Shown here in pieces: positions 19,822 to 33,018 of a DNA stretch of 64,000 nt. Below the pieces are notes generated by a model. It was not told where the DNA came from and did not search any database. It worked only from the letters and a program-made list of their open reading frames with translations. Each line of letters begins with the position of its first letter. The stretch's first letter is position 1. The translations under genes were made by a program, and so were the position numbers. The DNA comes from a virus, in IMG/VR virus record IMGVR_UViG_3300033571_022405, positions 1-64,000 of that record; one strand, written 5' to 3'.

Positions 19822-20194
19822 TATAAGTTTAAATCCTCAGCAAATTCAGCAAATGATTCAAATGTTACAGTCTATGCTTCCTCCCCAAGAAACTAAAACT
19901 GAGACAAAAGATCATGAAGCCGTGACTAATCCTACAAACAATAATATAAAAACCAACGACGTATCACATAGTCGTAATAAGTTTGACGATATGCCAGAAA
20001 GACGAATGCACAAAGAAGATGTAGAAGTTGATAAAAAATTAGCGACTCAGCCTCCTGTGCCAAGGGCTAGAAAATTTAAACTAATTAAGGTTTCTTGCAG
20101 GGTGTGCGGGAAAAAAGAAGAAGTTAATCCTGTTTTGATTACCGATTCTCTAGATAGATATAAGTGTAACAGGTGTTCAGGAACAGCGGGTTAA
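19814..20194 (+). CDS. Zinc-ribbon protein with disordered middle
   Basis: 126 residues. A short Gln-rich helix (QQIQQMIQMLQSML) is followed by a polar, probably disordered linker and a C-terminal zinc ribbon with C95-x-x-C98 and C118-x-x-C121. Such proteins often link nucleic acids and other proteins. Directly upstream of dnaB with a 24-base gap. Function unknown. Confidence 0.7.
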   Translation: MDNISLNPQQIQQMIQMLQSMLPPQETKTETKDHEAVTNPTNNNIKTNDVSHSRNKFDDMPERRMHKEDVEVDKKLATQPPVPRARKFKLIKVSCRVCGKKEEVNPVLITDSLDRYKCNRCSGTAG

Positions 20195-20218
20195 TAAAAA
20201 GGATACAGGAATATTTGT

Positions 20219-21676
20219 ATGATTTTATGTGATGTGGCCGCAGAACGCGCCGTTTTATCTGGCATTTGCAATTATGGCGAAGTGGCGTATTTGGACATAG
20301 CGGATATTATTCAAGACACCTCTTTTACTATAGATAGTAATGCTATTATATTTAAATGTCTAAAAACAGTTTGTGAAAGAGAACAAAAGCCAAGTATAGA
20401 TATAGCAACTATATTTTCTGTGGCAGAAGAGCTGGGTTTTTCTCATATAATTACAAAAAAAGAAGAAACCCAACACTTGAAGGCTATTATGGATTTTCCT
20501 GTTAGTCTAGATAATGTTAGAAAATTTGCAGCTAAAATCAGAAAATTAGAAATTGCTAGGCTATTGCGTAAACAGCTGGAACTAGCACAAGAAAAAATCT
20601 TGGATGTTAATGGCACAGAGCCTGTAGGGTCTATTTTAGGAATAGCAGAAGAAACTATTTTTAATTTCACCTCCTTGTTAAATGATACAGATAATCATCC
20701 GGTAACTATTGGCGAAAACATAGAGGAATATATTCTGGCTTTGGAATCTAATCCCATTGATCAAGTGGGTATTCCCACTGGATTTCCGGCCTATGATCAA
20801 TCTATTGGCGGAGGTCTAAGAAGAGGCACGGTTAATGTAATAGCAGCTAGACCCAAAACTGGTAAGACTTTATTATCGGATAATTTAGGTTATAATATAG
20901 CAAAACTGGGCGTACCTGTACTTAATATGGATACCGAAATGAATAAAGAGGACCATATTAATCGTATCTTAGCAATGATGACAGAGATTGAAATCAACAC
21001 TATAGAAACTGGTAAGTTTGCAGATTCTCCAGACAAAAAAAACAAACTAATATCAGCTTCTCGTCTATTAGCCAAAACGCCCCTATATCACAAAAGCATA
21101 GCGGGCAAGCCCTTTGAAGATCAGCTAGCTATTATGAGACGCTGGCTTCTAAAAGAAGTTGGTCTTAAAGATGATGGAACAGCTAAAGACTGCGTTATTT
21201 TTTATGATTATCTTAAACTTATGGATAGTGCTGGTATGAGCCAAGACTTAAAGGAATATCAAATTCTTGGTTTTATGATGACATCATTGCATAACTTTGC
21301 TGTTAGATACAAAGTGCCAATAGTAGCCTTTATACAGTTAAACAGAGACGGTATAACCAAAGAAAGCACCGATACGGCGAGTGGCTCAGATAGAATTATA
21401 TGGCTGTGTAGTAATTTCAGTATATTTAAAAGAAAAACGCCAGAGGAAATTGCGGAAGATGGTCCGGATAATGGCAATCGTAAACTAATACCATTAATTA
21501 GTAGGCATGGCGGAGGCTTGGATGACAACGATTATATAAATTGTCATATGCAAGGCTGGTGTGCCAAGATTACCGAAGGTAGAACTAAATTGGAAGTTGC
21601 TAATAATAGAGGAAGAACATCAGATGGCTTTATTGTTGAAGAACAAAATGCAAGTGAAGAAATCCCTTTTGAATGA
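20219..21676 (+). CDS. dnaB: Replicative DNA helicase, DnaB family
   Basis: 485 residues. Unwinds duplex DNA at the fork. The N-terminal domain (about 1-150) opens with AAERAVLSGI, typical of DnaB. The RecA-like motor has Walker A R211-PKTGKT217, a catalytic Glu in MDTEM (E240), Walker B in VIFYDYLKLM (D330) and the glutamine motif FIQLNRDG (Q373). The C-terminal tail is acidic. AGGA at 20207-20210 gives a ribosome binding site. The 3' end overlaps the primase gene, a common helicase-primase pairing. Confidence 0.93.
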   Translation: MILCDVAAERAVLSGICNYGEVAYLDIADIIQDTSFTIDSNAIIFKCLKTVCEREQKPSIDIATIFSVAEELGFSHIITKKEETQHLKAIMDFPVSLDNVRKFAAKIRKLEIARLLRKQLELAQEKILDVNGTEPVGSILGIAEETIFNFTSLLNDTDNHPVTIGENIEEYILALESNPIDQVGIPTGFPAYDQSIGGGLRRGTVNVIAARPKTGKTLLSDNLGYNIAKLGVPVLNMDTEMNKEDHINRILAMMTEIEINTIETGKFADSPDKKNKLISASRLLAKTPLYHKSIAGKPFEDQLAIMRRWLLKEVGLKDDGTAKDCVIFYDYLKLMDSAGMSQDLKEYQILGFMMTSLHNFAVRYKVPIVAFIQLNRDGITKESTDTASGSDRIIWLCSNFSIFKRKTPEEIAEDGPDNGNRKLIPLISRHGGGLDDNDYINCHMQGWCAKITEGRTKLEVANNRGRTSDGFIVEEQNASEEIPFE

Positions 21677-22799
21677 TCAAGCAAAACTTAAGATAGTTTG
21701 CGACGAAGTGTGTGACAATATACACGCTCTTTTAGATTTGTTTGAAATAGAGTATAGATCAAATAATAAAATGATTTCTATGGCTTGTCCCATACACGGT
21801 GGAGATAATATATCTGCTGTGAATTTATATCCAGAGGGCGATACTTATAGGGGTAACTGGAAATGCAGAACACATGGCTGTGAGAAAATTTTTAAGGGTT
21901 CCGTGCTCGGTTTTTTAAGAGGTATTATTTCTCATCAAAAGTATAAATGGGAAAAAAATGGGGACAAAGCGTGTTCATTTGATGAAGCCATAGATTTTGC
22001 TCTAGCGTTTATTAAAAAAGACATATCACACATCAAAATTTCTAAGGTAGAAAAAGATAAAAGACTGTTTACTAGCGTAGTCAATTATATTAATACTACC
22101 CCTAAAGAAAATTCTACTAAATTTCCTACCAGAAATCAGGTTAGAAATTCTTTAATCAGGCCCGCAGAATATTATATTAATAGAAATTATTCGCTAGACA
22201 CACTAGATAAATACGACGTCGGGGTTTGCAACAAGCCAGATAAAGAAATGTATAATAGAGTAGTTGTGCCTATATATGACAACGACTATAAATATATGAT
22301 AGGCTGTTCTGGTAGGAGTTTATTTGACAAATGTAATAACTGCGATTGTTATCATGACAGCAACAATGTTTGTCCCGATGAAGAAAAAAGATGGCAAAAT
22401 CCAAAATGGAAACATAGTGCTAACTTTAAAAGCCAAAATTGTTTATATAATTTTTGGTTTGCTAAAGAGAATATTAAAGCGACAGCCACAGCACTTATTG
22501 TAGAAAGCCCTGGCAATGTGTGGAGACTAGAAGAAAATGGCATACATAATAGTGTTGCTATGTTTGGTTCTTCTTTAAGCGATAGACAAAAAATTATTTT
22601 GGATTCTTCTGGAGCAATGACACTAGTAATCTTGACCGATAATGATGAAGCGGGGCGTAAAGCAGCAGAACAAATAAAAAACAAATGCAAAAACACATAT
22701 CGTATTTTTGTACCAACAATTAGCGCCAACGATGTTGGAGAAATGTCCTGTGAACAAATTAACACAGAAATTAAGGAGTTTTTAAAAGGTATTATATGA
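21648..22799 (+). CDS. dnaG: DNA primase (zinc finger plus Toprim)
   Basis: 383 residues from ATG 21648; ATG 21624, with GAGGA at 21609-21613, is an equally possible start. Makes RNA primers. The N-terminal zinc finger is C47-PIH50...C73-RTHGC78. A second Cys cluster (C229 to C242) interrupts the middle, unlike standard DnaG. The Toprim domain has ALIVESPGNVWRL (E286) and LVILTDNDEAG (D331, D333), the two-metal site. Overlaps dnaB by 29 bases and the kinase gene by four. Confidence 0.88.
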   Translation: MQVKKSLLNDQAKLKIVCDEVCDNIHALLDLFEIEYRSNNKMISMACPIHGGDNISAVNLYPEGDTYRGNWKCRTHGCEKIFKGSVLGFLRGIISHQKYKWEKNGDKACSFDEAIDFALAFIKKDISHIKISKVEKDKRLFTSVVNYINTTPKENSTKFPTRNQVRNSLIRPAEYYINRNYSLDTLDKYDVGVCNKPDKEMYNRVVVPIYDNDYKYMIGCSGRSLFDKCNNCDCYHDSNNVCPDEEKRWQNPKWKHSANFKSQNCLYNFWFAKENIKATATALIVESPGNVWRLEENGIHNSVAMFGSSLSDRQKIILDSSGAMTLVILTDNDEAGRKAAEQIKNKCKNTYRIFVPTISANDVGEMSCEQINTEIKEFLKGII

Positions 22800-23389
22800 C
22801 ATATATTATAGCTTTTGCCGGAAGAAAACAATCTGGCAAAACAACTTGTGCAGAAGCTAGTCTATATTTTTTTAAAGAACAGATAAATTTATCTGGTAAA
22901 ATTTACAACTTTGCCGATCCGCTAAAACAAGATATATGTATGAATATATTGGGGATGACACATAGTCAGTGTTATGGAGATGATATAGATAAAAACACAT
23001 TGACCAATATGTATTGGAATAATACCAACCTTACGGCGAGAGAAGTGATGCAATTCGTGGGAACCGATATTTTCCGCACATTAAAAAATGATGTGTGGGC
23101 AGGCGCAACCATTAAAAAAATCGTTTTAGAACAGCCAGAGGTCGCTATTATTGCAGATTGTAGGTTCCCCAACGAGGTTGAAGCGGTCAAATCAGCAGGG
23201 GGATATGTTATCAAATTAACTCGTAATCCTTATCATTCTACTCATTCGAGCGAAATTGCATTAGATCCAGAAAATTATGACTCTAACAATTTTGATCTTA
23301 TTATAGATAATAATACCATAGACATAAAACAACAAACTCAAATTGTCTTTTCCTTCCTGTCCACCCTCGTGAATAAAAACCATATATGA
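22796..23389 (+). CDS. Deoxynucleoside monophosphate kinase (T4 gp1-like)
   Basis: 197 residues. P-loop GRKQSGKT at 9-16. NFADPLKQDI and the TAREVMQFVGTDIFR segment are typical of phage dNMP kinases that phosphorylate dGMP, dTMP and hydroxymethyl-dCMP in T4; IIADCRFPNEVEAV marks the late conserved strand. It supplies dNDPs and fits the nucleotide-salvage set in the window. Overlaps both neighbours by four bases. Confidence 0.9.
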   Translation: MTYIIAFAGRKQSGKTTCAEASLYFFKEQINLSGKIYNFADPLKQDICMNILGMTHSQCYGDDIDKNTLTNMYWNNTNLTAREVMQFVGTDIFRTLKNDVWAGATIKKIVLEQPEVAIIADCRFPNEVEAVKSAGGYVIKLTRNPYHSTHSSEIALDPENYDSNNFDLIIDNNTIDIKQQTQIVFSFLSTLVNKNHI

Positions 23390-24429
23390 TAATAACCTAT
23401 CTTAGATCATCTAGTTATGGCACCCACTCTATGTGCCCACAACAATATTTTTTCGAATATATATTAGGAATAAGATCGCCGTCCAATAAAAAAGCAGACA
23501 AGGGAACCATATGCCATAAGGTTTTAGAGATTTTAGCTTTTATCAAACTGACTGAACAAAATAAAAATAAAAGTTTTGTAGACGATATTATTGGAGAGGT
23601 TAATATTGAAAAATATAATTTAGATACTATTACAGAAAAAATATATAAGTATTATACTAGCAAGTTTACACATCACGAATGGGATATTAAAGACTATAAA
23701 GATTGTCATACCTGGGTACACAAAGCACTAACGTATAACAATGGAATGTTTGATCCGAGAAATCGACATATCGTAGAGCCTGAACAACATTTTGATATAG
23801 AAATTAAAAAACCATGGTCATATTATAAATATGATACTAAAGAAGGTATACTAGAGGGTAATTTAGCTATTAAGGGCACTATAGACTTAATTACCAAGGT
23901 TAACGACAAGACTCTAGAAGTAATAGACTGGAAAACAGGAAGAAGATTAGACTGGGCAACCGGAGAAGAAAAAACACATCAAAAACTACAAAATGATCCA
24001 CAGTTAAGAATGTATCATTATGCTATACAGCATTTGTATCCAGAAATAGATCATGTGATGATATCTATTAATTTCATTAATGATGGCGGAGTATTTTCTA
24101 TTTGTTTTGATAAGAGCGACTTATATAAAACAGAATTAATGATTAAAGAAAAATTTGAAATTATTAAAAATACACAAAGACCACAATTAAACAAAAGCTG
24201 GAAATGTAACAAGTTGTGTCATTTTGGTAAAACCACTTTTGCCAATACTTCCATACTGCCAATTCTAGAATATAGAGATGGTCAACTAATCCCTAAAGAC
24301 CAATATATGACCAAGTGTGAACAAGTAAAACACGACACAGACCTAAAGGGGATAAAAGCTGTGATTGACGAATACCAAACTCCAGGCTATAGTATAGGAC
24401 ACTACAAAGCACCCGGAAGCTCTGAATGA
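23386..24429 (+). CDS. Cas4/RecB-like PD-(D/E)XK exonuclease
   Basis: 347 residues. N-terminal SSYGTHSMC17PQQYFFEY, H44 in GTICHKVLE, D167 in GTIDLI, E178-V-I-D181-W-K183 and Q206 in DPQLRMYHYAI make up the RecB-family nuclease motifs. C17 together with a C-terminal cluster (KCNKLC at about 272-277, and a later Cys near 313) is placed like the four Cys of the Cas4/AddB 4Fe-4S cluster, though the last spacing is unusually wide. Probably processes ends for recombination-dependent replication. It overlaps dnaE's first half by four bases. Confidence 0.85.
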   Translation: MIITYLRSSSYGTHSMCPQQYFFEYILGIRSPSNKKADKGTICHKVLEILAFIKLTEQNKNKSFVDDIIGEVNIEKYNLDTITEKIYKYYTSKFTHHEWDIKDYKDCHTWVHKALTYNNGMFDPRNRHIVEPEQHFDIEIKKPWSYYKYDTKEGILEGNLAIKGTIDLITKVNDKTLEVIDWKTGRRLDWATGEEKTHQKLQNDPQLRMYHYAIQHLYPEIDHVMISINFINDGGVFSICFDKSDLYKTELMIKEKFEIIKNTQRPQLNKSWKCNKLCHFGKTTFANTSILPILEYRDGQLIPKDQYMTKCEQVKHDTDLKGIKAVIDEYQTPGYSIGHYKAPGSSE

Positions 24430-26300
24430 AAACCTATAATCCCCTCCATTGTCACTCTACATACAGCTTATTGGACGGCCTACCACAACCCAAAGATATT
24501 GCACAACGATGCATAGAGATAGGGGCCTCAGCTTGTGCCCTAACAGACCACGGAAATATAGCCGGAGCTGTTAAGTTCTATGCAGAAATGAAGAAACAAA
24601 ATATTAAACCTATTTTGGGTTGTGAGTTATATTTGTGTGATGGAGACCCTACAGATCAATCTAAAGAAAACAAAAACCTAAGTCACTTTCTTGTTTTAGC
24701 AAAAAATTACGCCGGTTGGCAGGATCTCATTAAAATAGTTTCAGAAAGTAATCGTCCAGATTTTTTCTATCACAAACCTAGAATTAATTTAGAAACTTTG
24801 GGCTCATTATTAACTGGCAATATTATTGGGTTTTGTGGCCATCTAGGCTCTTACTTAGCAGATAAAATAACACATGAGAATCAGCTTATACCCGATTGGA
24901 AGACTGTTGGATTAACAGAAATCGGTAAGTTACAAAATGTATTTGGTAAAGAGAATTTCTTTCTAGAAGCCCAATTAATGGATAAAGAAAATACTCCATT
25001 ACAGATTATTTTAACGGATGCTATTAGAGAGCTAAGTAAGCTTACTAATACAAAAATTATCGGCACCCCAGACGCCCATTATTGTCGTAAAGAAGATGCT
25101 GTGGATCAAAGAGTTTTATTATGCAATAATCTTAAAACAACTTTTCCGGAAATTAGCAGAAAAATTAGTAATGACGAAGAAGTTCCGCTAGGCTGTTTTT
25201 TTACTTCGGATAATTTTCATATACTATCCCAAGAAGAAATGAATTTTTTGCACACAGAAGAAGAAATAGAAAATACCAGAATTATAACTGATATGTGCGA
25301 AGAATACAACATACTCAGTAAGCCAAATCTGCCCCCATTTGCCTGTCCTAATAATATGTCTGCTGATGAATACTTGAGAGAACTATGTCGCCACGGATGG
25401 AAGAATAAAATAGCGCCAGCCATAGATAAAGAATTACAAGTATCTTATGTCGATAGAATTAAATATGAACTAGAAGTACTACAAGGAGCCGGGCTGTCTA
25501 GTTACTTTTTAATTGTGCAAGATATAGTGGACTATGTAAGAAAAAATAATTGGCTACCCGGCCCAGGTAGAGGTAGTGCTGCTGGTTGTTTAGTTTCATA
25601 TCTTATTGGTATTACCAGTATAGACCCATTAAAGTATAATCTTTTATTTGATAGATTTTATAATGCTGGTAGAAATAGTAAAGATCATATTTCCATGCCC
25701 GATATCGACGTAGACGTACCTATCAATAAAAGAGAAAACATTATTGAATATATTAAAACGTGTTATGGTCATGACAAAGTATCTCAAATGATTACTTTCA
25801 ATACTATTAAAGGCCGAGGCGCTATAAAAGATGTTCTTAGAGTTTACGGCAATATCTCATTTGAAGAAATGAATAAAATTACTAAGGGAATTCCAGACGA
25901 AGCTAAAATAGCGGACGATCTTCAAGAAATGAAAGAGGAGACTGGGGAAGCCTCTATTATTAGGTGGGCTTTAGAGAATGAGCCAGAAAAACTCAAAGAA
26001 TGGTGTTATATTGACGATAATAATGAACTACAGGGGCCGCTTGCTAAAAGATTTGAACAGGCTATAAGATTAGAGGGCACCAAGTCTAATCAATCCAAAC
26101 ACGCCGCTGGCATAGCAATAAGTGCCCAATCACTAAACACCCTATGTCCTATGGTATACGATTCAAAAAACGATCAGATGATAGCCGGAATGGAGATGCA
26201 AGACCTAGAATCTCTGGGAATTATAAAATTCGATATTCTTGGCGTAGCGATGTTGGATAAAATTATGACAATAACAGACATGCTTAATAAAGGAGAATAG
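24426..26300 (+). CDS. dnaE: DNA polymerase III alpha, N-terminal part (PHP + palm)
   Basis: 624 residues, the front part of a C-family polymerase. The PHP domain keeps the full set of metal-ligand positions: H8, H10, D17, H42, E67, H116, C137, D216, H218. GPGRGSAAGCLVSYLIG (379-395) is the nucleotide-binding signature. The palm aspartates are D428 and D430 in MPDIDVD and D603 in IIKFDILG. The chain ends 21 residues after D603, where a normal alpha subunit continues into the fingers. The rest is encoded at 27185. 624 plus 541 residues is close to one full-length DnaE (1160 in E. coli). No intein-like segment at the end. Confidence 0.93.
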   Translation: MKTYNPLHCHSTYSLLDGLPQPKDIAQRCIEIGASACALTDHGNIAGAVKFYAEMKKQNIKPILGCELYLCDGDPTDQSKENKNLSHFLVLAKNYAGWQDLIKIVSESNRPDFFYHKPRINLETLGSLLTGNIIGFCGHLGSYLADKITHENQLIPDWKTVGLTEIGKLQNVFGKENFFLEAQLMDKENTPLQIILTDAIRELSKLTNTKIIGTPDAHYCRKEDAVDQRVLLCNNLKTTFPEISRKISNDEEVPLGCFFTSDNFHILSQEEMNFLHTEEEIENTRIITDMCEEYNILSKPNLPPFACPNNMSADEYLRELCRHGWKNKIAPAIDKELQVSYVDRIKYELEVLQGAGLSSYFLIVQDIVDYVRKNNWLPGPGRGSAAGCLVSYLIGITSIDPLKYNLLFDRFYNAGRNSKDHISMPDIDVDVPINKRENIIEYIKTCYGHDKVSQMITFNTIKGRGAIKDVLRVYGNISFEEMNKITKGIPDEAKIADDLQEMKEETGEASIIRWALENEPEKLKEWCYIDDNNELQGPLAKRFEQAIRLEGTKSNQSKHAAGIAISAQSLNTLCPMVYDSKNDQMIAGMEMQDLESLGIIKFDILGVAMLDKIMTITDMLNKGE

Positions 26301-26303
26301 AAT

Positions 26304-26492
26304 ATGAGTACGGTTAAGTTTATGGACCTAGAAGTTGGTTCTAAATTTAAAATGAATGGTATAGAATATGTTAAAACACCAGAAGAAAGAGTAAGTTGTT
26401 GTACATGTTTTAATGCTTGTGTAACTGCTAATTCTGACCAAAAAATACAGGTGCTGCCGCTAATTCAAGTAGAAAAAATAGAGAATGCTTAA
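26304..26492 (+). CDS. Small phage protein with SCC...NA motif
   Basis: 62 residues with a strong ribosome binding site (AAAGGAG at 26289-26295). Begins with FMDLEVGSKFKMNGIEYVK, a small beta-rich pattern, and has C32-C33-x-C35 and C39 in VSCCTCFNACV. Short proteins with this layout are, from memory, frequent in phages, with no known function. It lies between the two polymerase halves and abuts the exonuclease gene (TAATG), so it may be expressed with the replisome. Confidence 0.75.
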   Translation: MSTVKFMDLEVGSKFKMNGIEYVKTPEERVSCCTCFNACVTANSDQKIQVLPLIQVEKIENA

Positions 26493-27181
26493 TGATTAAC
26501 TATAATAAAATATGTGTTTTTGATTTTGAAACTGATGGCTCGGATCCCAGGGGTTGTAGTCCAGTACAAATAGCCGCTGTTATTGTTGATCCTATTAAGT
26601 TGGAAATTGTGCCTAATTCAGAATTTAATATCTTTTTTAAGCCAGAAGTGTTAGAAAAAAATGATAATTATGTTTATGAAACGGATATTCTGGATTTTCA
26701 TGCTAAGGTCAGAGGATCAACCAAAGAACAAATTTTATCTGAGTGGAAAGAATATCCAATACAAGATCAATCATGGAAATTGTTTACCAATTATTTAATG
26801 ATGCATCATACTCGATCATCTAAAAAGAGTCAGTTCAGCGCTCCTATCGCTGCGGGATATAATATCAATAGGTTTGATTTGCCTATTATAGATCGCTTGA
26901 GTCGTAAATATGGTAATGTGAATAAAGAAGACAGATCAGATATTTTTTATCCACGAGATGTTTTAGATATTATGAATTTGGTCTTTTATTGGTTTGAAAA
27001 CAATAATGATGTCAAAAATTTATCACTAGATACTCTTAGAGATTATTTAGGCATATCTAAATTAGGGGCTCACGACGCTCTAAAAGATGTAAAAGATTGT
27101 GCAGAAATATTAATTCGTTTCCTTAAGTTGCACAGAAATCTGAGTCAAAAAATAAAGTTTAAAGATTCTTTTGGGTCCTAA
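26492..27181 (+). CDS. DEDDh 3'-5' exonuclease (DnaQ-like proofreader)
   Basis: 229 residues. Exo I motif VFDFETDG with D11 and E13, Exo II YNINRFDLPI with D129, Exo III GAHDALKDV with H194 and D199, a complete DEDDh set. It is a stand-alone nuclease with no helicase or polymerase domain. Encoded between the two halves of dnaE, it is best read as the proofreading subunit of this polymerase, analogous to epsilon in bacterial Pol III. It starts in a TAATG overlap with the 62-residue gene. Confidence 0.92.
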   Translation: MINYNKICVFDFETDGSDPRGCSPVQIAAVIVDPIKLEIVPNSEFNIFFKPEVLEKNDNYVYETDILDFHAKVRGSTKEQILSEWKEYPIQDQSWKLFTNYLMMHHTRSSKKSQFSAPIAAGYNINRFDLPIIDRLSRKYGNVNKEDRSDIFYPRDVLDIMNLVFYWFENNNDVKNLSLDTLRDYLGISKLGAHDALKDVKDCAEILIRFLKLHRNLSQKIKFKDSFGS

Positions 27182-27184
27182 TAT

Positions 27185-28810
27185 ATGTCGAAAAAATTTC
27201 AGTATCCTTGCGGATGTTCTTTTAATGTGTCTTTGGATGGAGATAAGATCACGCAATTGATTTTTGATCCAAAAATAGAAAACATTGATCTAGATTGTCA
27301 AAGAACTTGGGATCTTATATCAGACGGTAATACCAAGGGGTGTTTTCAGCTAGAGTCTAGGCTTGGTAAGTCTATGGCTAAAAAATTAAAACCCCAAAAC
27401 ATGGAGCAGCTTTCTGCTCTTATTAGTATTTTGAGACCCGGATGTTTAGAGGCTGTTAGAGATGGAAAAACAGTTTCTAATCATTATATAGATAAAAAGA
27501 ATGGACTAGAATCAGTGGATTATTACCACTCAGTTTTAGAACCTGTTTTAAAAACTACATACGGAGAGATGATTTATCAAGAACAGGCGATGGAAATTGC
27601 CAGAGTTGTAGCCGGGTTTAATTTGCAAGAAGCAGACATGTTGCGTAAGGCCATCGGTAAGAAAAAACCAGAAGAAATGGCTAAAATTAAAATTAAATTT
27701 ATAGAGGGCTCACAAAAAGCAAATCTAGTATCATCGTCACAAGCAGAAGAAATTTTCGGATGGATAGAAAAATCTCAAAGATATTCCTTTAATAAAAGTC
27801 ATGCGGTTAGTTATGCTGTTAATAGTTATTTATCAGCTTACACAAAAGCTCACTTTCCAAGAATTTTTTTTGCGGCCTATTTGAGATTTGCTAAAGATAA
27901 AATAGACCCAAAAGCAGAAATCAAGGAATTAGTACAGAATGCTAATGAGATGGATGTTTCTGTGCGGCTGCCAGACATTAGAAACATGAATCAGTATTTT
28001 ATATTAAAGAATGAAAAAATTTATTTTGGACTAACAGATATTAAAGGTTTCGGTAAGTCCGTATTCGACAAACTCATTAAATTAAAAGATGAACAATTTT
28101 TAGATTTTGATCTTATGACATGGATAGATATGCTGATGAAAGTATTATTAAACATTAATTCTACATCGGCAAAAGCTCTCATACAAGCAGGAGCTCTTTC
28201 TTATCTCAATAAAAATAGATCTTCTATGTTATTTGAATTTAATTTAATGTCAGAACTAACTAAAAAAGAATGTTCTTTTATCACAGATAAAACACATAAA
28301 TACAAAAGTTTGGGGGATGCACTATATGATTTATATCATAATGGTAAATCAAACAAGAATCGTAAAAATATAATTTTAGGCTTAATTAATAATTTCAATA
28401 AGCCACCATACGCTCTAGAAGATAATCCTGATTGGATATCCGATATAGAGGATGAAACTTTAGGGTGCAGTATGACCTGCTCTAAGGTAGACATGTATGA
28501 TATAAGTATGACTAATATTACGTGTAAAGATTTTAAGAATGGCATGATTAAAGACAATCTTATATTATGCGGAGAAATAGAAGCCATCAGTGTTACTAAA
28601 ACAAAGTCGGGCAAAACTCCTGGACTAGAGATGGCTTTCGTAACAATGAGTGACGGCACAGGCTCTGTTGATTCTGTTGTTTTCTTTCCAGAGTCGTACA
28701 AACTATATAGAAATACGTTGTTTGAAGGCAACGTAGTTATAGTAAAGGGTAACAGATCGAAGTCTGGAGACTCTCTCATAGTTGAAAAAACGTATATTCC
28801 GAAAACTTGA
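27185..28810 (+). CDS. dnaE: DNA polymerase III alpha, C-terminal part (fingers, HhH, OB)
   Basis: 541 residues. After about 36 residues with C9-x-C11 and C38 the chain joins the C-family pattern at TWDLISDGNTKGCFQLES (41-58), then LISILRPG, GEMIYQEQAMEIAR and the fingers motif RYSFNKSHAVSYA (199-211). The C-terminal region includes a helix-hairpin-helix-like part and an OB fold (about 455-535, ILCGEIEAISVTKTKSG onward). No catalytic Asp is here, so it needs the product of 24426 to work. The YSFNKSH site, where cyanobacterial DnaE carries a split intein, is uninterrupted. Weak ribosome binding site. Confidence 0.92.
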   Translation: MSKKFQYPCGCSFNVSLDGDKITQLIFDPKIENIDLDCQRTWDLISDGNTKGCFQLESRLGKSMAKKLKPQNMEQLSALISILRPGCLEAVRDGKTVSNHYIDKKNGLESVDYYHSVLEPVLKTTYGEMIYQEQAMEIARVVAGFNLQEADMLRKAIGKKKPEEMAKIKIKFIEGSQKANLVSSSQAEEIFGWIEKSQRYSFNKSHAVSYAVNSYLSAYTKAHFPRIFFAAYLRFAKDKIDPKAEIKELVQNANEMDVSVRLPDIRNMNQYFILKNEKIYFGLTDIKGFGKSVFDKLIKLKDEQFLDFDLMTWIDMLMKVLLNINSTSAKALIQAGALSYLNKNRSSMLFEFNLMSELTKKECSFITDKTHKYKSLGDALYDLYHNGKSNKNRKNIILGLINNFNKPPYALEDNPDWISDIEDETLGCSMTCSKVDMYDISMTNITCKDFKNGMIKDNLILCGEIEAISVTKTKSGKTPGLEMAFVTMSDGTGSVDSVVFFPESYKLYRNTLFEGNVVIVKGNRSKSGDSLIVEKTYIPKT

Positions 28811-28834
28811 CGCTTGGCCGTCGGTTCCTATAAT
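28807..28834 (+). promoter_or_regulatory. Near-consensus sigma70 promoter for ssb
   Basis: TTGACG (28807-28812), 16 bases, then TATAAT (28829-28834). The -35 box overlaps the TGA stop of the polymerase gene. It is the best match to a bacterial housekeeping promoter I found in the intergenic gaps, and it lies 38 bases before the ssb start. Confidence 0.75.
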
Positions 28835-28872
28835 AGTGTAGTACATTGGTTATTTTTTTCAAGGAGAAATAA

Positions 28873-29244
28873 ATGAATATTAATATCTTACGTGGTAATC
28901 TTGCTCGTGATCCAGAAATGCGTGTTGTTAATACTAATGGTAAGCAGACTGCGGTAGTTAATTTTACCGTCGCTGTTTCTCGTGAGTATACCAAGTCCAA
29001 TGGAGAAAAGGACAAGGTAACAACTTTTGTACCATGTGAAGCATGGGATAGTGGCGCAGAAATTATCGGACAGTCCTTCAAGAAGGGCGATCTGGTTCTA
29101 GTAGAAGGATCATTACGTAATGATTCATGGGAAAAGGATGGAGTTAAGCATAACTCGTTGAAGGTTAGAGTTAATAACTTTTCTAAGATTACTAAGCTAT
29201 CTAAGAAGAGCAAAGAAGTTAATGAAGAAGTTGTAAGTTTCTAA
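28873..29244 (+). CDS. ssb: Single-stranded DNA-binding protein
   Basis: 123 residues. A bacterial-type OB fold: NILRGNLARDPEMR, then VVNFTVAVSREY, TTFVPCEAWDSGAEII and GDLVLVEGSLRNDSW, in the usual order. The C-terminal tail ends EEVVSF, a shortened version of the acidic tip with terminal Phe that recruits partners. Strong ribosome binding site AAGGAG at 28861-28866. It has its own promoter and terminator. Arg codons are mostly CGT (5 of 6) and Lys mostly AAG, unlike the AGA/AAA habit of its neighbours, which suggests high expression or a different origin. Confidence 0.95.
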   Translation: MNINILRGNLARDPEMRVVNTNGKQTAVVNFTVAVSREYTKSNGEKDKVTTFVPCEAWDSGAEIIGQSFKKGDLVLVEGSLRNDSWEKDGVKHNSLKVRVNNFSKITKLSKKSKEVNEEVVSF

Positions 29245-29267
29245 TCCATCAGATGCACTAAAAAGAG

Positions 29268-29295
29268 ATGGGGGTGCGAACACACCCCCATTTTT
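29268..29295 (+). terminator. Rho-independent terminator after ssb
   Basis: ATGGGGGTG (29268-29276) pairs perfectly with CACCCCCAT (29283-29291) across a 6-base loop and runs into TTTTT (29291-29295). It is by far the most GC-rich hairpin in this part of the window. Confidence 0.9.
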
Positions 29296-29297
29296 CT

Positions 29298-30977
29298 ATG
29301 TCTAAAACCAAACTTAAAATTTTGATGTGTTCCGAAGCTAGTTTTTTAAATTCTGGTTTTGGTACTTATGCTAGGGAAATACTGCAAAGGCTGCATCGTA
29401 CTGGTAAGTACGAAATCGCAGAATTTGCTTCTTATGGAAAGGTGAACGACCCTAAAGACGTGGGTATTCACTGGAGATATTATGCAAATGCTGTTGACGA
29501 TAAAGACCCTAGGGCTTCAGAATATAATAGCTCTATGGAAAATCAATTCGGCAGATGGAGATTTGAAAGAGTTCTTCTAGATTTTCAGCCCGATATAGTA
29601 GTCGATGTCAGAGATTATTGGATGAGTTCATACCAACAATTCTCTCCATTAAGACCATTTTATCACTGGGTCTTGATGCCCACGGTAGATTCTGCCCCAC
29701 AACAAGAAGAATGGCTCGATACATTCTTACACGCCGACGCTATTTTTACTTACTCAGATTTCGGCAGAGATACTCTGCTAGAACAAAGCAATAATAAAAT
29801 TAGATACATAGATACTACGTCTCCCGGCGTAGATCTTAATACATTCAAAGCTATAGACAACAGATCGGGTCTTAAAGAACATTTTGGTTTTGATCCGGAC
29901 AGCTTTATTATTGGCAGTATTATGCGTAATCAAAAACGCAAACTTGTACCAGAATTATTCTCCAGCCTTAAGGGATTACTCCATAAATTCAAAAGAGAAA
30001 AAAATCCTATTGGAGAAAAGACTTATCTGTATTTGCATACGAGCTATCCGGATGCGGGTTGGGATATTCCTCAACTACTTAAAGAATATAAAGTAGGCAA
30101 CAGAGTACTATTTACTTATAGTTGTAAAAATTGTGGATACTTTGCACCCAGCCTATACCAGCACCCTGTTTCATATTGCCCAAAATGTAGTCAAAAATCT
30201 TTTTCTATGCCTAATGTAAGTTCAGGCATTTCTTCACAAAATTTATCTGTTGTGATTAATCTTTTTGATATCTATGTGCAATATGCTATTTGCGAAGGCT
30301 TCGGCATGCCTCAAGTAGAAGCATCCTCTTGTGGAGTTCCAGTAGCATCTGTTGATTATAGTGCGATGAGTGATGTTGTCAGAAAAATCAATGGATATCC
30401 GATTAAAATTAGACAAGGCTTTAAAGAACTAGAGACAAAAGCTATTAGAGTATATCCAGACAATAACCATTTAATAGAAATTTTATCTGAATACCAAGCT
30501 ATGCCCAGCGTACTGAAAGAACAGAAACGGTTTGAAACCAGAAAATTAACAGAAGATCACTATAATTGGGACCATATTGCTGAAAAATGGGAAAAATATT
30601 TTGATAATGTACAATTGGTTGGTTTACAAGGAAAATGGGCAGAAAATCTTCCCGTATTGAACAGTATTGATTTACAGTCTTTACCTGTGAATAATAGAAA
30701 TCCATACGATATTGTTACCAAGATGGTATCAGCTCATATGCCCCATCACCAGTTCGCATCTTCTATATTGCTATTAAATATGATACGTGACCTAGACTAT
30801 GGATTCGCTATTAATGGTATACAAACAGAACCCTACGGTCTAGATAAGGCCACAGCCGTACTTAACAATATGATTAATAATAATAACTTAGCTCAGAACG
30901 CAAAGCATCATTTGCCAGAATTAAAAAATGAAGACTTTATTCAATATGCTCATATGAAAGAAAATATAAAAGAATGA
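29298..30977 (+). CDS. GT4-type (GT-B) glycosyltransferase with zinc-ribbon insert
   Basis: 559 residues from ATG 29298. The GT-B fold is shown by KILMCSEASFLNSGFGTYA at the N terminus, IGSIMRNQKRK (205-215) at the start of the donor domain, and the GT4 signature E333-GFGMPQVE-A (E333...E341). Between them C276, C279, C294 and C297 form a CxxC...CxxC zinc ribbon, absent from ordinary GT4 enzymes. About 120 extra residues follow the transferase domain. The ATG lies 2 bases after the ssb terminator's T-run and lacks a Shine-Dalgarno sequence. First gene of glycan module 2. Confidence 0.85.
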   Translation: MSKTKLKILMCSEASFLNSGFGTYAREILQRLHRTGKYEIAEFASYGKVNDPKDVGIHWRYYANAVDDKDPRASEYNSSMENQFGRWRFERVLLDFQPDIVVDVRDYWMSSYQQFSPLRPFYHWVLMPTVDSAPQQEEWLDTFLHADAIFTYSDFGRDTLLEQSNNKIRYIDTTSPGVDLNTFKAIDNRSGLKEHFGFDPDSFIIGSIMRNQKRKLVPELFSSLKGLLHKFKREKNPIGEKTYLYLHTSYPDAGWDIPQLLKEYKVGNRVLFTYSCKNCGYFAPSLYQHPVSYCPKCSQKSFSMPNVSSGISSQNLSVVINLFDIYVQYAICEGFGMPQVEASSCGVPVASVDYSAMSDVVRKINGYPIKIRQGFKELETKAIRVYPDNNHLIEILSEYQAMPSVLKEQKRFETRKLTEDHYNWDHIAEKWEKYFDNVQLVGLQGKWAENLPVLNSIDLQSLPVNNRNPYDIVTKMVSAHMPHHQFASSILLLNMIRDLDYGFAINGIQTEPYGLDKATAVLNNMINNNNLAQNAKHHLPELKNEDFIQYAHMKENIKE

Positions 30978-32101
30978 ATATTTTATTTGTAGGACCGTAT
31001 AGGCAAAATGATGGGTGGGGTTTAGCTACACAAAGCTATATAAAAGCCCTGGGCACTAAGTATAACAATCTCACTACTAGGCCCATTTTTTTCACCAGCG
31101 CTCCATCAGAATACGAACCAGATGAACAAATCTTGGCGTATGAGAATGCTTATTTTGATCAATACGATGTGGTTATACAAAAAGTATTGCCCCATAATTT
31201 ATTTCTCAATAAAAAATATGCAAAAAATATAGGCCTCTTTGTCTTAGAAACCAATAACATAGGACAGTCTACCTGTATTAATAATATCAATCAAATGGAT
31301 GAAGTTTGGGTACCTAGCAACAGAGAAAAATTGTGTCTACAAAAGTCTGGAGTCATTAAGCCCATCAGGGTTATATCCCAGCCTCTTGACATAGACTTTA
31401 TTAAAAATAATCAAACTCATAAATTAACTCTGCATCCTGCTATAGATAAAACCTTTAAATTTTATTTTATAGGGGAATATAATGAACGTAAAAATGTTTT
31501 GGATTTAGTCACAGCTTTTCATTTGGCTTTTGATATTACACAACCGGTGTCTTTGATTATTAAAAGTAGTATTGGGGGCATGAGCCCAGCAGAATCTCAT
31601 CGAGTTATCGAAAAAGACATAGATAATTTAAAAAGAAAACTTAATATTAGTACTAAATACAAAAAAGAATTAATTATTACAGAAAGACTATCCGATAAAG
31701 ATATCGTGGGATTACATAACTCTGGAGATTGTTTTGTAATGCCCTCTATGGGCGAAGCATTTTGTAGACCAGCAGCAGAAGCACTGGTTCTAGGTAAAAC
31801 CCCTATTGTGACAAACAATACTGGTATGACCGACTATATTAATAACGATAACGGCTGGTTGATCAAAAGTCATAAAACACCTGTTATATTGAATAATAGG
31901 CCGCTAACAAATGAATTTGATTTATATAATGCCCATGAATATTGGTATAAAATAGATATGTACAATTTAATAGAGCATATGAGATCCGTCTACGCTATGC
32001 ACAAATCAGAGAAACAAAAACTTGCCGATAAAAGAGAAGTCGGTAAAAGTATTATAGATCAATTTAGTTACCATAGTATTGGAGAGCGTCTATGTATCTA
32101 G
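30974..32101 (+). CDS. GT4-type (GT-B) glycosyltransferase
   Basis: 375 residues, overlapping the previous gene by four bases (ATGA). N-terminal MNILFVGPYRQNDGWGLATQ is the acceptor-domain start, FYFIGEYNERKNVLDLV opens the donor domain, and PSMGEAFCRPAAEAL carries the E-x7-E motif of GT4. Acts on activated sugars in the cytoplasm. Overlaps the next gene by 10 bases. Confidence 0.88.
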   Translation: MNILFVGPYRQNDGWGLATQSYIKALGTKYNNLTTRPIFFTSAPSEYEPDEQILAYENAYFDQYDVVIQKVLPHNLFLNKKYAKNIGLFVLETNNIGQSTCINNINQMDEVWVPSNREKLCLQKSGVIKPIRVISQPLDIDFIKNNQTHKLTLHPAIDKTFKFYFIGEYNERKNVLDLVTAFHLAFDITQPVSLIIKSSIGGMSPAESHRVIEKDIDNLKRKLNISTKYKKELIITERLSDKDIVGLHNSGDCFVMPSMGEAFCRPAAEALVLGKTPIVTNNTGMTDYINNDNGWLIKSHKTPVILNNRPLTNEFDLYNAHEYWYKIDMYNLIEHMRSVYAMHKSEKQKLADKREVGKSIIDQFSYHSIGERLCI

Positions 32102-33018
32102 GTTTTACTACGGGTAATATACTACAAAAATTTACTCAGGAACCATATAATATTCTATATGCTCCACAAAATAATTGTTTTGATCATACCTTGGTATCAT
32201 TAGATCATCATAAGTATTTTAATATTGTAAATGCTCAGGCCAAGCCCACAATATCAATACCCAACCTAATCAATCTAGAGCCCAAAGACCTCACATTGTA
32301 TAATTACAACTTAACTATAAGTAATAATATTATTGGTTATAGTCAAAATAATACATTTAAAAATTTTCATTTAAACGGTATTTTATGCACTCATTCAATC
32401 AGACCTCCGTATATTAAAAAAGAAGATCTAGCACTTATTAATCAAAGACTTAAAAAAGATGTTAAAATATTCTTCACCGGCGCTGCTCAAGAATCATGGA
32501 AACTAGATAATAGTTATCTAATCAATTATGGCATACCAGCAAACTTTAAAAGTTTATCTCCGTTCAACGAACGAACAAAAGACATTTTAGTTATAAACAC
32601 AGAAGGATTGCCGTATGCTCAACAAATTGCTGCCGTAGCAAAAAATGCTGGTTTGTCAGGAGACATTATAACTAATCTCAGCATGTCCACAAAGTCTCTT
32701 AACGAGATTTTCAATCACTATAAAGTAGTTATAGATTTAGCTGAACATAATATTATTAATCTTTTATGTGCTGTGGCTGCTGGTTGTGTGGGCGTCACTA
32801 TGTCTCATCCAGCAGTGAATAGAGAGTATGGGGATATTGATAACTTAGTTTTTGTTAATGAGCCAAATGAATTAATGAATATTGTTACTCAGAATCTTGA
32901 CCCAAAGAACACAGAAGATGGTTCAATAAGTATAAAAAATAAATTTAGTTTCGAATCTTTTGCAAAGGTATTTAATTCTGTTATTGTACAAACCAACAAC
33001 AAGGCATTTATTTTATGA
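32092..33018 (+). CDS. Putative GT-B-like protein
   Basis: 308 residues. The layout, with alternating strands and helices and a late VAAGCVGVTMSHPA followed by an ending like FSFESFAKVFNSV, resembles the C-terminal donor half of GT-B enzymes, where a Gly-rich turn precedes the last strands. No E-x7-E motif is present, so it may be inactive or belong to another GT-B family. GGAGAG at 32081-32086 is a usable ribosome binding site. It lies in an overlapping run of glycan genes. Confidence 0.5.
   Translation: MYLGFTTGNILQKFTQEPYNILYAPQNNCFDHTLVSLDHHKYFNIVNAQAKPTISIPNLINLEPKDLTLYNYNLTISNNIIGYSQNNTFKNFHLNGILCTHSIRPPYIKKEDLALINQRLKKDVKIFFTGAAQESWKLDNSYLINYGIPANFKSLSPFNERTKDILVINTEGLPYAQQIAAVAKNAGLSGDIITNLSMSTKSLNEIFNHYKVVIDLAEHNIINLLCAVAAGCVGVTMSHPAVNREYGDIDNLVFVNEPNELMNIVTQNLDPKNTEDGSISIKNKFSFESFAKVFNSVIVQTNNKAFIL

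Follow-up and report, generated by a model that had tools for sequence, protein, structure and literature searches.

The α subunit of a DnaE-type DNA polymerase III (Pol III α) is encoded by two genes in a large lineage of uncultivated phages, with an N half that carries the PHP and palm domains, a C half that carries the fingers, and the gene of a DEDDh exonuclease between them. We consider it very probable, judging from sequence, that the polymerase was broken, probably once, and that its halves and the proofreader assemble non-covalently as the phage replicase. In the proposed scenario, a DnaE-type Pol III α would have been broken at the linker between palm and fingers in the ancestor of this lineage, with each half retaining its own domains and active-site residues. 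Both chains would be products of a single compact operon, probably with translational coupling, and would unite without a covalent bond into the replicative polymerase, and the DEDDh exonuclease would join the same complex as its proofreader. Since the fingers are missing from the palm chain and the catalytic aspartates from the fingers chain, neither should polymerise alone. The original prediction had called such a two-chain, non-covalent enzyme the simplest reading, and the present sequence analysis supports it as the probable one, in that the split is kept throughout the clade, the break bears no intein and the virus records yielded no family A or B polymerase. To our knowledge, replicative polymerases of the Pol III α family are single chains. 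A lineage that seems to depend on a polymerase divided at the border of metal-binding palm and fingers would show that both parts can evolve as subunits. It may also offer a naturally split polymerase for use as a tool, and it makes the proofreader testable as a structural part of the core.

The window, the whole stretch of 64,000 bases that was analysed, is part of the 92,164-base virus record IMGVR_UViG_3300033571_022405 (Table 1). As predicted, the palm and fingers halves, with an exonuclease gene and a gene for 62 aa between them, are present as ORFs with the expected Pfam domains: PHP (residues 7-183) and DNA_pol3_alpha (315-606) in the 624-aa protein, and DNA_pol3_finger (30-179), HHH_6 and OB (tRNA_anti-codon) in the 541-aa protein. 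These genes are tightly spaced, with 3 nt after the palm gene, a 1-nt overlap between the 62-aa and exonuclease genes, and 3 nt before the fingers gene. The exonuclease combines the DEDDh residues with the RNase_T family match that characterize DnaQ/epsilon and is the sole RNase_T-family match in the record. Another record (L002, 112,254 bases) encodes an identical C half within a matching layout.

Table 1. Split polymerase locus and neighbouring genes in window coordinates
Feature	Position	Strand	Evidence
DnaB-type helicase, upstream, same gene cluster	20219..21676	+	Pfam, PHROG
Toprim primase, start uncertain; ORF overlaps helicase	21561..22799	+	Pfam, PHROG
Deoxynucleoside monophosphate kinase	22796..23389	+	Pfam, PHROG
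PD-(D/E)XK nuclease (CAS4 label)	23386..24429	+	Pfam, PHROG
N half of Pol III α, PHP + palm, 624 aa	24426..26300	+	Pfam, PHROG, alignment to 2hpi
Catalytic Asp codons, palm chain	D428 25707-25709; D430 25713-25715; D603 26232-26234	+	
62-aa protein	26304..26492	+	no Pfam or PHROG match
DEDDh (DnaQ/epsilon-like) 3'-5' exonuclease, 229 aa; D11, E13, D129, H194, D199	26492..27181	+	Pfam RNase_T
C half of Pol III α, fingers + HhH + OB, 541 aa	27185..28810	+	Pfam, PHROG, structure match
C-half start, residues 1-26, C9-G10-C11, predicted short beta strands	27185..27262	+	model, profile
Single-strand DNA-binding protein (SSB)	28873..29244	+	Pfam, PHROG

Over the two chains, the domain set of a DnaE-type Pol III α (PHP, three-Asp palm, fingers, HhH, OB) is complete, and it is carried by two ORFs rather than by one polypeptide. 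The break had been placed in the linker just after the third catalytic Asp, and the alignments agree. The halves tile the 1190 positions of phrog_405 as 42-616 and 622-1070, with five positions between, and they meet on the solved α chains: palm residue 615 corresponds to residue 630 of 2hpi in the sequence alignment, while residue 23 of the fingers model corresponds to residue 639 of 2hpi and 4iqj in a structural alignment of large rmsd. By these alignments, the break position is the linker between palm and fingers. Single-chain DnaE (PHROG 405; 2hpi, 4iqj, 5fku) has the same domains in the same order with the same active-site residues, and the two halves tile its chain; in contrast, the enzyme studied here is made from two genes, bears a CGC segment at the start of its C half, and stops near the position of E. 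coli α residue 1075 in the structural alignment. The fingers model (mean pLDDT 83.2) matched 4iqj with a Z of 17.9 (rmsd 11.4) and 7pu7 with a Z of 17.4 (rmsd 7.9), and the mean pLDDT of the palm model was only 66.7, too low for its use.

The active-site residues are strongly conserved. All three aspartates that had been claimed for the palm (D428, D430 and D603) are present in 72 of 72 aligned palm sequences. The PHP residues D17, H42, E67, H87, H139, D216 and H218 occur in all 72 relatives and H8 and H10 in 63 of them; we take these residues to be metal ligands. Exonuclease residues D11, E13 and D129 are found in 71 of the 72 sequences, with one gap, and H194 and D199 in every one, as are K204 and H206 of the fingers.

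The CGC segment lies outside the sequence-profile alignment to solved α, where matches begin at residues 27-29. Structural matches of the C half to solved α begin at 13-24, so that the segment may partly overlie the usual linker. Of the 298 relatives with a complete fingers start, 282 have CGC within their first 60 residues; 16 fingers proteins lack it, and among the 15 of these that were displayed, 12 keep C-x-C and three do not. Speculatively, and with little commitment on our part, this N-terminal segment may be proposed as the best candidate for a latch or docking element that replaces the lost linker.

To follow the split among relatives, IMG/VR was scanned with the C half, with the exonuclease, with a palm alignment and with the fingers sequence from a distant relative. 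At most 80 loci per scan were taken from 252, 143, 459 and 170 confirmed matches; they are 41-100% identical to their respective queries, and several share a contig. Altogether 305 loci were collected, two of them from genome collections. Both halves are present in 297 loci, representing 150 distinct fingers sequences, and the other eight miss one half from the stored stretch. None of the 297 is fused, so that close relatives with an intact single dnaE, an outcome that would have spoken against the original prediction, were not encountered. The exonuclease gene stands between the halves in every one of the 297. On the other side, the genome-collection loci L232-L309 are all fused (78 of 78), and L230 and L231 are split.

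The distance from palm stop to fingers start varies from 647 to 4,788 bases, approximate values for which the earliest possible ORF starts were used. The earliest fingers start lies −62 to +8 nt from the exonuclease stop in 71 of 74 loci, a spacing that suggests translational coupling. L045 and L319 have extra genes that separate the exonuclease from the fingers, and such insertions, together with the distances of up to several kilobases between the halves, speak against read-through. For instance, the insert at L045:4355-7847 contains a DUF1559 gene and thyX among others. DUF1559 is typical of planctomycetes, and the gene is a possible hint at the host. A gene similar to the 62-aa gene was found in 70 of 72 aligned relatives, and several loci of the L231 group carry a dissimilar gene of 69-80 aa at its place. 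Individual genes are themselves interrupted in some relatives: the exonuclease of L063 is spread over two ORFs, and the palm occupies two ORFs in loci of the L357 type (L357, L358, L361, L363, L365 and L366; 432+294 aa, 810 bases between) as well as in L025/L100 and L377 (430+168; 456+277). The palm frame of L384 (record G008) has several stops beside an intact fingers gene, which may reflect error or decay.

A tree unites all 23 split rows (SH-aLRT 100) and separates them from the rows labelled bacterial, so that a single break suffices; the tree was built by a quick method from 48 hand-chosen rows without L395, its 15 "bacterial" rows being 14 of the 78 genome loci plus L158, and long branches call for caution with L394, L397, L398 and the second phage group described below. 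L158 (AFYI01000001.1) is a Salmonella contig filed among phages, with dnaE amid ordinary chromosomal genes.

Outside the clade, phage matches reached at best 34.6% identity with the N half and 31.5% with the C half (within the best 60 of 1,276 or 1,350 records), and bacterial matches to the C half reached 40% over part of its length. The question had been raised whether relatives are single-chain. Within the clade all 297 loci with both halves proved to be split, and outside it dnaE is a single ORF in six of nine phage loci (L157, L394-L398). The other three have dnaE broken elsewhere: LilyPad (318|809 aa), Jayan (410|77|634) and Alicyclobacillus phage KKP_3916 (four ORFs). The fragmented dnaE region of KKP_3916 contains a group I intron according to Rfam (L161:2703-3036), the only one among those three. 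Over the dnaE of L398 (JX006077.1, 3654-6800), a 'Na+/proline symporter' is annotated in antisense, likely a false annotation. DAC19-type Bacteroides phages were considered as relatives and rejected: the six records were the only exonuclease matches in the phage collection, at about 30%, but the gene of 555 aa that follows the DAC19 exonuclease is a terminase, and a 24.6-kb stretch of DAC19 gave no palm or fingers match.

The palm end and the fingers start show no intein blocks in the aligned relatives, and no Rfam family reached threshold in window positions 20000-33000. The earlier claim that neither end looks like an intein thus gains weight, since both ends are clean in the aligned relatives whereas inteins at other places of these genes are easily recognised in relatives. 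It had also been stated that the break differs from the cyanobacterial split-intein site, and indeed SFNKSH is unbroken at C-half residues 201-206. GRG|C marks a break within the palm gene of L035, L042, L050 and L131; the first piece carries an N-intein, and the next starts with residues resembling a C-intein. In the case of L035 (4050-7126), the C-intein ends in HN, followed by a serine, and the pieces are separated by an endonuclease-like ORF, although the Pfam scores for Intein_splicing (34.4 bits, cut-off 35.8) and the endonuclease (22.6, cut-off 29.1) are both below threshold. A contiguous intein was found in the fingers at RPG|C in L114, L131 and L136, with Pfam confirming that of L131. 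All these inteins occupy places other than the palm/fingers break, and the split intein in the palm gene serves as an internal positive control for the absence of inteins there.

A second phage group (L392, at G018:C141, and L400-L416), reached through one of the contigs in the MAG behind L231, has its break at another position. Its gene order is helicase, primase, nuclease, a putative PHP gene of 232-260 aa, an exonuclease of 204-221 aa and palm+fingers, the last being a single PHP-less chain of 847-859 aa. The order PHP, exonuclease, palm/fingers was observed at 15 of 17 loci, and the two exceptions are cut by contig ends: L410 lacks the stretch preceding the exonuclease, and L416 lacks both. 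The PHP gene of L392 scored 25.4 bits in Pfam (cut-off 26.4) and matched the palm alignment in hhalign with probability 86 (E 5e-6), while the PHP motifs of this group look degenerate; from these comparisons, the PHP assignment appears good but not strong. An exonuclease gene is thus located in the Pol III α seam of two groups that differ in their break (palm|fingers in one, PHP|palm in the other), which allows a test of whether gene order is linked to assembly. Whether the two split groups are sisters is unsure because of long branches. Contigs C141, C285 and C418 of G018, a MAG labelled Lokiarchaeota, carry Pol III parts like those of these phages and are probably binned phage contigs.

Distances for 28 pairs among eight cluster genes were also correlated over the 89 loci left after filters. 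The three highest correlations, exonuclease-fingers (0.865), palm-fingers (0.864) and palm-exonuclease (0.838), were followed by fingers-primase (0.823), and the flanking nuclease and SSB reached 0.63-0.70 against palm, exonuclease and fingers; these values are confounded by linkage, which may explain part of them. On the basis of the second group and of these correlations, we lean towards a gene order palm-exonuclease-fingers that aids assembly. A stronger version, in which the exonuclease would clamp or chaperone both pieces in the two phage groups and the gene order would record the assembly order of three chains, seems to us rather doubtful.

Regarding the role of the enzyme, each of the 17 virus records of relatives (92-231 kb) contains one palm and one fingers gene; extra matches are pieces of one gene in G008 and G009 (palm, in two pieces in G009) and in G014/L136 (fingers, with an insert). 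A second complete polymerase, which would have weakened the original prediction, did not turn up: none of the 18 virus records, including that of the window, yielded a family A or B polymerase, but the records may be fragments, so that a second polymerase could be missed. PolB matches are present in the MAG behind L231, which stands outside these 18 records. The RNase_T family was detected in 16 of the 18; G015 and G016 are below threshold, though loci L311 and L315 from them carry the exonuclease gene when compared more closely. In all loci reaching that far, the polymerase genes lie downstream of helicase and primase. The split enzyme is likely the replicative polymerase of the phage, although the stops in the palm frame of L384 and the absence of a beta-clamp match from the 18 virus records count against this reading.

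Several other explanations of the locus were weighed. An origin of the split in a sequencing or assembly artefact has a negligible chance of being correct. A few bacterial polymerases are fragmented, usually by frameshifts and in some cases perhaps through sequencing errors, according to the accessible part of PMC3919608, but the same layout recurs in 297 loci, which include 150 distinct fingers sequences, and the identical C half was recovered from a second record, so that the assembly error that had been named as a risk was not found. It is also highly improbable that the halves are joined after all into a single chain, by protein trans-splicing or by RNA splicing. Both processes have models close at hand, in the split intein of the palm gene of four relatives and in the group I intron of the L161 dnaE; however, the break itself shows neither intein blocks nor, in the searched part of the window, an Rfam match, and conserved genes, at times kilobases of others, lie between the halves.

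The remaining alternatives concern function. The exonuclease gene in the seam could have arrived by a chance insertion that disrupted the polymerase gene, in which case the exonuclease would not be structurally tied to the polymerase. Since the small gene differs in the L231 group and other genes enter the gap, the seam tolerates insertions, but the exonuclease is present in all 297 loci, an exonuclease is again found at the break of the second group, and the first has distances that track those of both halves, so that we regard this origin as unlikely. Finally, the split enzyme might be an accessory or repair polymerase while the host or an unrecognised phage polymerase copies the genome. Jumbo phages with a split minimal Pol III α beside a B-family polymerase provide a parallel, as far as the accessible text of PMC7824862 describes them, and a beta-clamp match is missing from all 18 virus records. 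The lack of PolA and PolB matches in the same records and the location downstream of helicase and primase argue against an accessory role, which appears quite unlikely.

Compared with known systems, the non-covalent two-chain replicase proposed here would combine familiar elements in a different way. In cyanobacteria, dnaE is likewise divided into two genes, with the break within the fingers at the FNKSH site and mended by an intein; here it falls in the palm/fingers linker and comes without an intein. Fractured genes with a split intein and a homing endonuclease were reportedly described by Dassa et al. in 2009. Such genes likewise enclose other genes, whereas Pfam, PHROG and alignment detected no intein halves or endonuclease at the palm/fingers break. 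PolC is one chain with an exonuclease inside the PHP region. It also pairs a polymerase with a DEDDh exonuclease, but the two are separate genes in the phages studied here, which sets them apart from a single-chain enzyme.

For the jumbo phages of group 2.2, we refer to a 2021 report presumably by Iyer et al. According to the accessible text of this report (PMC7824862, 2021), these phages have a split minimal Pol III α without other Pol III domains, with genes far apart, and also a B-family polymerase; synthesis of one strand or repair was suggested. Split phage polymerases are therefore already known. The likeness, taken from the same text, is that large phages encode the catalytic core of Pol III α in two separate proteins. 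However, when compared by description, the enzyme analysed here keeps PHP and OB, its genes form one cluster with the exonuclease inside, and no PolB was found in its virus records. The available portion of the PaBG paper describes no split Pol III α. Among other phages, MIJ3 has a PolB split with a split intein, as stated in the accessible part of PMC6892783. The OM43 phages MEP401 and MEP402, another phage group that can be likened by description, encode their DNAP in two genes separated by a small ORF, for which the authors consider an intron possible (accessible part of PMC10580990). Among the papers listed, whose coverage excludes most subscription papers, no published description of the palm-exonuclease-fingers arrangement was found.

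Beyond the replication cluster, four giant ORFs of 1455-2699 aa, among which that of 1988 aa gave no Pfam match, occupy the minus strand of the window at 38607-63989, and one giant ORF of 4009 aa lies on the minus strand at L391:1093-13122; all of them are perhaps virion genes.
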